Source of the DNA: Microcaldota archaeon
Lineage (GTDB): Archaea > Micrarchaeota > Micrarchaeia > Micrarchaeales > Micrarchaeaceae
Assembly: GCA_021811435.1 (NCBI GenBank)
Contig: JAJZOR010000001.1
Location: 62,001-126,000 of the forward strand
Reading direction: 5' to 3'
Length of the DNA: 64,000 bases
Shown here: piece by piece, positions 9,040 to 59,358 of the stretch
Numbering within the stretch: position 1 is the stretch's first letter
How the letters are laid out: every line of letters begins with the position of its first letter
The notes under the pieces: generated by a model
What the model was told of the DNA's origin: nothing
Seen by the model: the letters and a program-made list of their open reading frames with translations, nothing else
Database searches by the model: none
Made by a program: the position numbers and the translations under genes

Positions 9040-9178
9040 TGGGGTTGCAGGGATTTGAACCCTGACTAGCAGGTTACTTCCATGGATTTTTGCATTCCAG
9101 ATTTTCATCATCGCGCTAGGCTCAAATAATCAATAAACATCTGGAGCCTGCTGCGCTGCCAAATTACGCCACAACCCC
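9040..9178 (-). tRNA. tRNA-Trp (CCA) with 66-nt intron
   Basis: The acceptor stem GGGGTTG pairs perfectly with CAACCCC, with discriminator A at 9040. The T arm is CAGGG-TTCAAAT-CCCTG. The anticodon stem GCAGG/CCTGC encloses a CTCCAG...A loop, giving anticodon CCA. The intron is at the canonical 37/38 site and occupies 9075-9140. CCA is not encoded. Within the intron an ATGATGA box-C-like sequence (9105-9111) is followed by ATCTGGA, complementary to the anticodon-loop TCCAGAT. No convincing box D was found, so an intronic box C/D guide RNA, as in haloarchaeal tRNA-Trp, is only a possibility. Confidence 0.93.
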
Positions 9179-9758: not shown

Positions 9759-10382
9759 ATGGTTCTAGATTTTATATTGACAACTGGGTATGCGAATACA
9801 TACAATATAGGTACGTTTAGCAGGAATTTCAGCCTGAACACATGGGCGTTTCAGTTCGCGGGGCAAGTAGCTAGTGCACCGCTCACGAGCATGATGTCGA
9901 CGCTGGCAGGGAGCTTCCTTATAATAATCCCGCTATTGGTGTTGTATTTATACTTCAAAAGGGACATGAATGTTTATTCGTTGGTAATCATTGGAGTGCT
10001 GCTTTATGTTATAGCAGAGATTATAAAACTGGTCATGCAAGAACCACGGCCCTGTTCAATCCAGGGAGAAATCAGTTGGCTGGCCAATCCAGTATCTTGC
10101 GAATCCGGGTTTTCGTTCCCGAGTGCTCACGCGTCGGTCCTAACAGGATTGGCGCTGTTCACTAAGGGATACAAGTATATAAGGGTGGCGTACATAGCAT
10201 GGCTTTTCCTGGTGCTTTTTGGTAGGGTTTATCTAGGCGCGCACTACTTTACGGATGTCATAGCCGGAGTGGTGCTTAGCGTCGTAGTGACATATGTAGT
10301 ATCGCGCTACTCTTCCGTAATCAACAGGACCGCAAACAATATAATAAGGGCCATAATCCCGAGAGCGGCGATTACTAAATGA
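9759..10382 (+). CDS. PAP2-family membrane phosphatase
   Basis: A 207-residue membrane enzyme with about six helices and the full PAP2 signature: KLVMQEPRP (motif 1), FPSAHAS (motif 2) and GRVYLGAHYFTD (motif 3, with catalytic His). Members dephosphorylate lipid pyrophosphates such as undecaprenyl or dolichyl pyrophosphate. With glycosyltransferase genes nearby, recycling of dolichyl pyrophosphate is a reasonable inference. It starts 14 bases after the Nudix gene. Confidence 0.88.
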   Translation: MVLDFILTTGYANTYNIGTFSRNFSLNTWAFQFAGQVASAPLTSMMSTLAGSFLIIIPLLVLYLYFKRDMNVYSLVIIGVLLYVIAEIIKLVMQEPRPCSIQGEISWLANPVSCESGFSFPSAHASVLTGLALFTKGYKYIRVAYIAWLFLVLFGRVYLGAHYFTDVIAGVVLSVVVTYVVSRYSSVINRTANNIIRAIIPRAAITK

Positions 10383-10525
10383 CTTGCCCTGCAAACTATC
10401 TGAATGGGGAGGTGTAAGACTTCGGCAGTGGGCGTAAGTGCTTGAAGGACTTGGAGCGTACCATGCAAACGTAGGGGAAGCCAACGGCCCTTAACCCGTT
10501 GGGGTGTGCCACAAATAGTTCACAT
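10383..10525 (+). mobile_element. Possible IS200/IS605 right end or omega-RNA-like remnant
   Basis: A non-coding stretch containing GGGGAAGCCAACGG, a short loop, then CCCGTTGGGG (perfect 7-bp stem 10481-10487 with 10496-10502). This AAGCC..CGG hairpin resembles the 3' hairpin that ends IS200/IS605-family elements and their omega (guide) RNAs. The 90 bases before it can form further short stems. No tnpB or tnpA frame is present: the upstream gene is a complete PAP2 phosphatase. It could be a solo end, a MITE-like derivative or an unrelated structured RNA. Confidence 0.4.
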
Positions 10526-10612
10526 GCATATAAAAACATTGGCTCATAAATTTTGTTGCAAACATTGTCTTAAGCGGTTTATCAGTACAATCATGTTGAA
10601 CAGTTGATTTTT

Positions 10613-11530
10613 ATGGAAATCTCTAAAAGTGATGTAAGGGCGGATGTTTTAAACGCCGAAGCTAAGATGAAGGGTGCAAAGGATGACGCGAAGCCCGAAG
10701 ACAGGAAAGCCCATGCGCACAAGCGCAGAGAGATTTATATCGGGATAGTGGCAGTCATAATTATTGCCGGAGTGGCTTTGGCGCTTATAAGCACGCCGAG
10801 CCCCGTCGTGGCTGACATATCTATGGATGGCGTGCAAGTTAACGTCACTACGCTTTCGCAGCTCAAAAATATAGCGATGAACGAGACCCTAGCTAATGAA
10901 GTAGGCATTGGAGTGGTGAGCAATCCACCGGTTAACTCAGACACGTCCACACCACTCATTGTAAACGGCACCCCAGAGATAATTTATCTAGGGGCCAACT
11001 ACTGCCCATTCTGTGCAGTCACTAGGTGGGGCCTCATACTGGCGCTTATGAGGTTTGGCAACTTCAGCGTACTGCGCTACATGACGTCAGGAACTGCCGT
11101 TGGGGAGGTCTACCCTGGGTCTCCGACATTTACGTTCTACAACTCTAACTACTCGAGTACGATGATAAAGTTTGTACCTGTTGAAGAAGAGACCAACAAT
11201 TACACGCAATTGCAGACACCGACAGTCTTTGAGGACCGATTGGTCAATATAACAGATTATAATAACCCTAATGTACAGGCGCTGTACAAAGGCGGTATTC
11301 CATTCATAGACTTCGGCAATATATCTATACAGGCTGCTGCTCCGGTTAGCCCTGCGGCAATCTATCGAAACACATGGAATAGGGTTATAGCGAACCTCAG
11401 CAACGTCGGTACTGCGCAGTCACAGGCGATAATAGGCACCGCCGACGTCTTTACTGCCCGCATATGCAAGATGACCGGTGGCCAGCCCATTGATGTCTGT
11501 AGCGCAGCTTATGTGAGAAAGCTGTCATGA
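10613..11530 (+). CDS. DUF929 thioredoxin-like membrane-anchored protein
   Basis: About 305 residues. A charged cytoplasmic N-terminus (about 45 residues, rich in Lys, Asp and Ala) is followed by one membrane helix (about 45-65) and an outside domain. That domain carries IIYLGANYCPFCAVTRW, a CxxC thioredoxin-type site characteristic of DUF929 proteins of archaea. Several NxS/T sequons suggest N-glycosylation. A role in extracytoplasmic thiol-disulfide chemistry is inferred. The ATG at 10613 is used; a TATAAAAA box lies near 10529. Confidence 0.8.
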   Translation: MEISKSDVRADVLNAEAKMKGAKDDAKPEDRKAHAHKRREIYIGIVAVIIIAGVALALISTPSPVVADISMDGVQVNVTTLSQLKNIAMNETLANEVGIGVVSNPPVNSDTSTPLIVNGTPEIIYLGANYCPFCAVTRWGLILALMRFGNFSVLRYMTSGTAVGEVYPGSPTFTFYNSNYSSTMIKFVPVEEETNNYTQLQTPTVFEDRLVNITDYNNPNVQALYKGGIPFIDFGNISIQAAAPVSPAAIYRNTWNRVIANLSNVGTAQSQAIIGTADVFTARICKMTGGQPIDVCSAAYVRKLS

Positions 11531-58369: not shown

Positions 58370-59032
58370 ATTCCAATCCTTGCGCCTGCCTTTAATAGCA
58401 ATTTTATTAAAACAACTGCCACAGACCATAAGTAGTTATGGCGGTACTTTGATCTGATATTTATGACCTTCAGAAAATGCGCAATGAAATCGACGCCAAG
58501 TAGGGCCCAGCCATCTATGGAGTACCTGATGACTTATCAGTAGTTCCAAAACAGCTAGGCTTTACCGTTACGAACTGCCGCTCGGCGCCGAAATAACGCG
58601 GTGCAGCATGAACTTTAACGCAGATTCGCAGTGTGGCACAGTGTTTTGACGATATTCTGCGTCGTTTTCGCGCATATCCTCTGAGCGGAAGTAAGGTGTA
58701 AGGGCGGGTATGTTGCACTAACCCCTGCTAATGAAACTTTTCACCCTTATCCTCCTCTCGACCCGCATTATAGGCCCCAACAAAACGAGTTTCACCTCGC
58801 CCAATCGAAGCACCGCCTGCGCCGATTGCGAGGCTAGGAGGCTATAAAGTTCGTTTCCCTTTAACGTATCGCGCATTTCTCCATAGAAGATGAATTTCTT
58901 TTCTGAATTATACTTTTACGTATTTGCATACAACGCAGTGTTGTAGAGGCCGTTGGAAATTTTCGCAAGATTGGTCAGGGCTGCGTCTGCCCTTTCATTC
59001 GGATTTATCCCTGCGACTTGTGTCAAGCGCAT
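58370..59032 (-). pseudogene. Decayed tnpB (IS200/IS605 OrfB) gene
   Basis: On the reverse strand the reading begins MRLTQVAGINPNERADAALT and NGLYNTALYANT, hits a stop, and continues in the same frame KKFIFYGEMRDTLKGNELYS and LLASQSAQAVLRLGEV: the TnpB N-terminal pattern (LYN.AL, Y..L...LK...ENY..L.SQ.AQ). A frameshift and stop follow; PRYFGAERQFVTV is visible at about 58600. Near 58390-58500 LLGVDFIAHFLKV and SKYRHNYLWSVAVVLIKLL recall the RuvC GVDLG and the R..R.NYL regions of TnpB, with the sequence between lost. No tnpA, hairpin end or guide RNA was found beside it. Confidence 0.65.
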
Positions 59033-59358
59033 GTTTATGCCTTATCCAATTGCCGTTCTATGCATTCTTGATTATCAATTAAAATGGATACGTTGCGTTG
59101 GTGCACCGGCATTCATCCCACCTTTAAAGAAGGTAGGCTTTCTGCTCTGCATTCGGTAAGTCCATAATGTAACAGGTGTTGATGGCGGCGACGGCCGAGT
59201 TATGACGCCCAACACATGATGTTGCACTGGAGCTCGCCATCCACAGCAAAACGCTAAAATGGGGTGCGGCTTTTTATATATTCTCGGATAAGCATATTGC
59301 TGGGATTGCAGATGAGCCGGATGCTTAGGCCCGTTTGAAATCCACTCAAGTGTTTCGA
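59033..59358. other. Gap before aCPSF2
   Basis: About 325 bases. TTTTTATATATTC at about 59270-59282 is a good TATA box for the aCPSF2 gene. A short frame on the reverse strand just beyond the tnpB start may be part of the same decayed element. Nothing else was recognised. Confidence 0.4.

Follow-up and report, generated by a model that had tools for sequence, protein, structure and literature searches.

Terminal-only forms arise frequently from IS605-type elements in Haloquadratum by core deletions, and the resulting palindrome-associated transposable elements (PATEs), IS605-related elements of Haloquadratum walsbyi, include HqIRS71, which retains part of the C-terminal coding region with disrupted frames (sections of PMC3119063 used here). 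The guide of ISDra2 (omega-RNA or reRNA) comes from the tnpB 3' end, the right end and the flank, the TAM of this element being TTGAT (PMC8612924, excerpts), and TnpB is able to produce the guide from its own mRNA (PMC10278001, excerpts). Archaeal omega-RNAs occur also as circular forms, with no mention of MITE, solo or standalone forms in the parts of the source cited here (PMC12558985). A literature search on stand-alone or trans-acting TnpB/IscB guides gave no title on tnpB-less omega-RNAs among the matches listed, although these included PMC3119063 with its IS605-derived PATEs, and the only match for Micrarchaeota combined with transposon and TnpB concerned other nucleases. Stand-alone omega-RNA loci of the IscB type have reportedly been found in Ktedonobacter and proposed as functional.

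The locus described here lies within a 64,000-nucleotide stretch of a Micrarchaeota genome (the window) and carries a hairpin of the kind found at the right ends of TnpB elements. It is very probably a decayed, core-deleted (PATE/MITE-like) relic of an IS200/IS605-type element, and hardly a solo guide RNA still at work. The genome is small and encodes the TCP-1 chaperonin, in line with an archaeal origin.

Organization of the locus

The limits of the element were revised to approximately 10384 (directly after ATGAC at 10379-10383) and 10512, or about 130 bp, leaving bases 10513-10525 outside the element as flank. The locus consists of the following parts:

9759..10382, + strand: PAP2-superfamily phosphatase gene (ORF; Pfam PF01569, E 1.7e-19)
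10379..10383, + strand: TAM-like ATGAC at the left-end border (direct reading)
10380..10396, + strand: left-end motif TGACTTGCCCTGCAAAC (2 mismatches against TGAYTCGCCCCGCAAAC of related elements)
10397..10405, + strand: junction zone separating the left-end similarity from the omega-RNA similarity (ambiguous alignment; deletion point approximate)
10406..10512, + strand: omega-RNA/right-end similarity (R1 and R2 matches and alignments; collinear with the 3' stretch of copies that carry tnpB)
10461..10476, + strand: first family hairpin, CCATGC AAAC GTAGGG (5/6 pairs retained)
10481..10502, + strand: terminal right-end hairpin, CCAACGG / CCGTTGG (7 pairs, 8-nt loop; directly after GGGGAAGC)
10513..10530, + strand: flanking DNA past the right end, which would serve as the guide of a transcribed, working copy
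10604..11530, + strand: DUF929 gene, downstream partner in the conserved pair (Pfam PF06053, E 1.9e-22; synteny)

The ORF upstream of the hairpin encodes the PAP2 phosphatase, not TnpB, and its stop codon TGA (10380-10382) falls within the TAM-like target site. All three forward frames over 10383-10525 are interrupted by stops, and nine TnpB queries against the surrounding 3 kb produced no match at E 1e-4. An adjacent tnpB gene or remnant, as expected of an autonomous element, was thus lacking at this locus, and the sequence-only reading was right in stating that no tnpB is attached.

Relation of the hairpin to TnpB elements

Two covariance models were built, both excluding the window copy. 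The first (R1), made from six copies of the own genome situated downstream of TNB domains, matched 10408-10515 with 33.1 bits (E 7.1e-7 for the 64 kb window searched); it found 21 places in the own genome at E <= 10, of which 11, the window copy included, were below 0.01. The second (R2), covering the 3' 71 positions and made from 13 copies of seven genomes, matched 10441-10512 with 49.5 bits, at E 2e-11 for the window and 3.5e-10 for the genome. In 10 of the 13 R2 members the TnpB coding sequence extends past the omega-RNA overlap, two (L084 and L078) sit at contig edges where the presence of tnpB could not be judged, and one (L075 of genome G043) is itself tnpB-less, a caveat from which R1 is free. 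Searched at the DNA level, the own genome yielded a single further match, C1:68995-69037, with 82% identity; it lies about 90 bp past the TNB domain of a TnpB (C1:68701-68901), which ties the hairpin to TnpB elements.

The bare fold of 10383-10525 was ordinary (z -0.36, with 61 of 200 shuffles folding equally well), so that the reality of the hairpin is shown by its homology and not by its stability. A search of Rfam over the window reached the gathering cut-off for two tRNAs only, and the relaxed search of 10250-10700 gave a single match, whose 12.2 bits fall short of the cut-off of 34, with no omega-RNA or other family. One tRNA match, at 9040-9178 on the minus strand, took 139 bases for a model of 71 positions and is probably an intron-containing tRNA gene.

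By sequence comparison, the hairpin belongs to an IS200/IS605-type TnpB element, as its right end or omega-RNA 3' region. The IS605-type assignment made beforehand from the letters is thus borne out by two models built free of the window copy. The objections raised in advance, no transcript together with no further copies, or a better match to another RNA family, do not apply to the identity of the hairpin: copies exist, and Rfam offers nothing better.

Left end and target site

Full-length copies in related genomes start with TGA(T/C)TCGCCCCGCAAACCCA or a near variant (the copies of G002 and G004, identical there, were counted as one). Searching the own assembly (1.1 Mb) with a 17-nt motif, picked after the match had been seen, returned only the C1 copy (0 mismatches) and the window (2) at <=2 mismatches, while at <=3 mismatches there were five matches (three more at 3), equal to the five of the reversed-pattern control; in shuffled versions of the window at least one match at <=3 mismatches appeared in 31 of 100. 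A longer left-end alignment was not significant alone, its score of 13 being attained by 21 of 12,790 overlapping segments, and blastn against own-genome copies gave nothing convincing, the similarity being seen against full-length copies of related genomes. The window also shares a 9-nt stretch, GGGCGTAAG (10430-10438), with the left end, which was left unused as ambiguous.

The left-end match is convincing because of its position beside a right end. The motif is present, with the left-end palindrome degraded, and the element probably keeps a degenerate left end at the expected place, which would mean that it is no solo right end. Of the earlier description as "solo", the absence of tnpB stands, but the implied absence of a left end does not.

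The TAM-like sites read directly in other copies (L015, L122, L121 and L125) were ATGAC, TTGAT, ATGAT and ATGAT; WTGAY precedes the left-end motif in the copies read and is close to the TTGAT of ISDra2. The window has ATGAC at the left border, and the syntenic relatives without the insertion are too diverged to give an exact empty site.

Absence of the insertion in relatives

The own genome and 59 relatives were searched for the PAP2 gene, and 29 relatives' loci (L022-L050) were taken for comparison. A further PAP2 scan returned nothing but remote bacterial homologues (8 loci, 27-33% identity). DUF929 is located directly downstream of PAP2 in 11 of these, and the insertion is absent from between the two genes in all 11. 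Some 222 bp separate PAP2 from DUF929 here, against gaps of about 30 (G001), 99 (G003) and 85 bp (G002) within the same genus. Among the 29 loci the R1 model gave strong matches to L050 and L039 and a weak one to L048 (E 0.16), all three outside the syntenic 11.

Sequence divergence of the window copy

Divergence was scored over columns 61-139 of an alignment of 14 copies. The window copy is changed in 11 of the 44 conserved columns, the most of all 14, the others differing at 0-8 of 38-43, with the reference for each row formed by the other 13, so that the window copy counts in the reference of the others. With the window copy left out of the reference, it deviates at 5 of 25 strictly invariant columns, level with the worst other copy, C17b (5/30). 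It forms 14 of the 17 modelled pairs, including one A-U to G-C double change, while the other copies form from 11 (C17b) to 17; the retained pairs and the double change could also come from mild constraint. Against the G038 copy, 18 element positions differ in the 3' part, 15 of them by transitions, a nineteenth listed difference belonging to the flank.

TnpB elements of the same genome

A search of the own genome for the TNB domain (PF07282) gave ten places, six of which are followed by the same kind of 3' region. Contig C11 encodes an uninterrupted TnpB of 414 aa with PF07282, PF01385 and PF12323; the tnpB genes on C1, C4, C16 and C17 have internal deletions or frame breaks; TnpB on C2 is joined straight to the right-end hairpin; C20:66561 is a C-terminal TnpB remnant; and C6 has the right end alone. 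Together, these copies form a graded decay series that begins with an uninterrupted tnpB and ends in bare right ends. Of what the sequence-only reading had suggested looking for, further copies are present, and C11 holds an uninterrupted tnpB. The Y1 transposase gave four matches in this genome.

The window also contains, at 58676-59160 on the minus strand, a left-end hairpin with an N-terminal TnpB-like frame carrying in-frame stops, which shows 94% identity over 349 nt to an element at C17:24000-29000. The region is a second IS605-type relic, next to which the right-end model detected no right end.

Frequency of right ends without tnpB

The R2 set of the own genome comprised 20 loci (21 matches, one without a locus). 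TnpB was matched by tblastn in nine of the 20 and by Pfam in one more (C20:88567), a short C-terminal TnpB stretch was recognised by eye at C11:18750, and two loci, the window copy and C6:96907, had no TnpB match. Seven loci were set aside, six for their position at contig ends (L109, L110, L113, L115, L116 and L117) and one for its low score (L112). Five of those (L109, L110, L113, L115 and L116, on contigs C22, C25, C23, C20 and C6) share, close to contig ends, one right end of another IS605 subtype that is nearly identical among them, and this repeat likely caused the assembly breaks there.

In the relatives, 29 loci gave a TnpB match within the locus in 23 cases and none in six, a count biased to tnpB-bearing copies by the choice of the best-scoring locus per genome and one in which divergent TnpBs could escape the queries. 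Two of the 23 (L134 and L140) match only over approximately the last 20-40 residues, and among the six without TnpB one is located at a contig edge (L120) and another has only about 370 bp upstream (L135). By eye, the tnpB-less copies begin at differing 5' limits, which is what independent deletions would give. In the related genome G038, one and the same right end recurs in many nearly identical copies (13 matches in one search and 32 in another), several of them at contig ends, which suggests that its element was recently active.

In another genome, a right end of this family that lacks tnpB (L075, G043:C21:119259-119329, minus strand) follows directly after a host reading frame. It is well conserved, with 2 of 39 columns changed, which shows that the absence of tnpB alone does not imply old decay. 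It had no left-end match (best 9 of 13 letters). L075 is a better candidate than the window copy for a recent 5'-truncated insertion.

Origin of the element

For the core-deleted relic, the following course is proposed. A tnpB-bearing element, of the family of the contig C1 copy and the copies of related genomes, would have inserted 3' of a WTGAY-type motif, the insertion point being the PAP2 stop codon. The core with tnpB would then have been lost, which would have brought some 20 bp of the left end next to the omega-RNA/right end in an element of about 130 bp, and the remnant would now be drifting between PAP2 and DUF929. The deletion may have happened in place or an already short form may have inserted; the remnant presumably lacks a function, and any read-through transcription it receives would come from PAP2. 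The MITE-like element or leftover considered among the original options is supported by this arrangement, with both ends probably present and the core and tnpB missing. Such leftovers arise elsewhere too, as evident from L075, which has the right end without tnpB or a left end.

It is unlikely that the short form itself inserted here as a mobile PATE/MITE moved in trans by a Y1 TnpA of the genome. Both ends seem present, four Y1 transposase matches are at hand, and short IS605-derived elements are possibly mobilised in Haloquadratum (PMC3119063, the sections mentioned), but a PATE family would have multiple short-form copies, and none of full length was found elsewhere in the own genome and 59 relatives, all matches to the whole stretch beginning at query base 30 or later. 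Of the other features of PATEs, the right end is clear, there is no reading frame, and the left-end motif stands with its palindrome degraded. An origin unrelated to transposons, as a host 3' UTR or terminator hairpin of PAP2, is the least credible reading: the hairpin region does lie directly past the PAP2 stop codon, but it is missing after PAP2 in all 11 syntenic relatives, and the strong homology to right ends of TnpB elements contradicts such an origin.

That the locus is a functional stand-alone omega-RNA which works in trans through another TnpB, for instance the 414-aa protein of C11, is very improbable. The nearly complete 3' part with its 14 retained pairs and the existence of that uninterrupted TnpB, in which Pfam recognises three TnpB domains, speak for it; against it stand the highest number of conserved-position changes among the 14 copies, the different subtype of the C11 right end (an insert and a different hairpin) and the absence of the insertion from the relatives examined. 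A 16-nt guide pattern starting from 10512 had no second target at <=2 mismatches, and its 10 matches besides itself, all with 3 mismatches, compare with 9 for the reversed-pattern control. Equally improbable is that the remnant still undergoes co-transcription with PAP2 and processing to an omega-RNA which the C11 TnpB then uses in trans; were it so, the cell would have a guide independent of any transposon and directed at this very site in its empty form. The stand-alone trans-acting guide, put forward from the sequence as a potential novelty, accordingly found no backing in selection, a second target or amplification.

The core-deleted element is an ordinary relic of an already known kind and has little significance by itself. 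What it illustrates is that core deletion can account for a bare hairpin of the TnpB right-end type with no tnpB, that such leftovers are present in several of these small genomes, and that calls of solo omega-RNAs need checks of the left end, the syntenic empty site and conservation before a role in trans is claimed.

Comparison with known systems

The window element resembles the IscB loci of Ktedonobacter, reportedly proposed as functional, in being a guide-RNA-like locus without a nearby nuclease gene, in contrast to which it gives no sign of constraint. With the reRNA of ISDra2, as described in the excerpts of PMC8612924, it has in common the tnpB 3' end/right end followed by flanking DNA and the TAM-like motif at the left border, but it has no attached tnpB, is changed at conserved positions and is known here as a sequence only. 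From the PATEs of Haloquadratum, as far as presented in the sections of PMC3119063 used, it differs in being a single copy, in its degenerate left end, in giving no sign of movement and in belonging to another lineage, while sharing with them the near-terminal palindrome of the IS605 type, clear at the right end and degraded at the left, and the loss of the core with the transposase genes.
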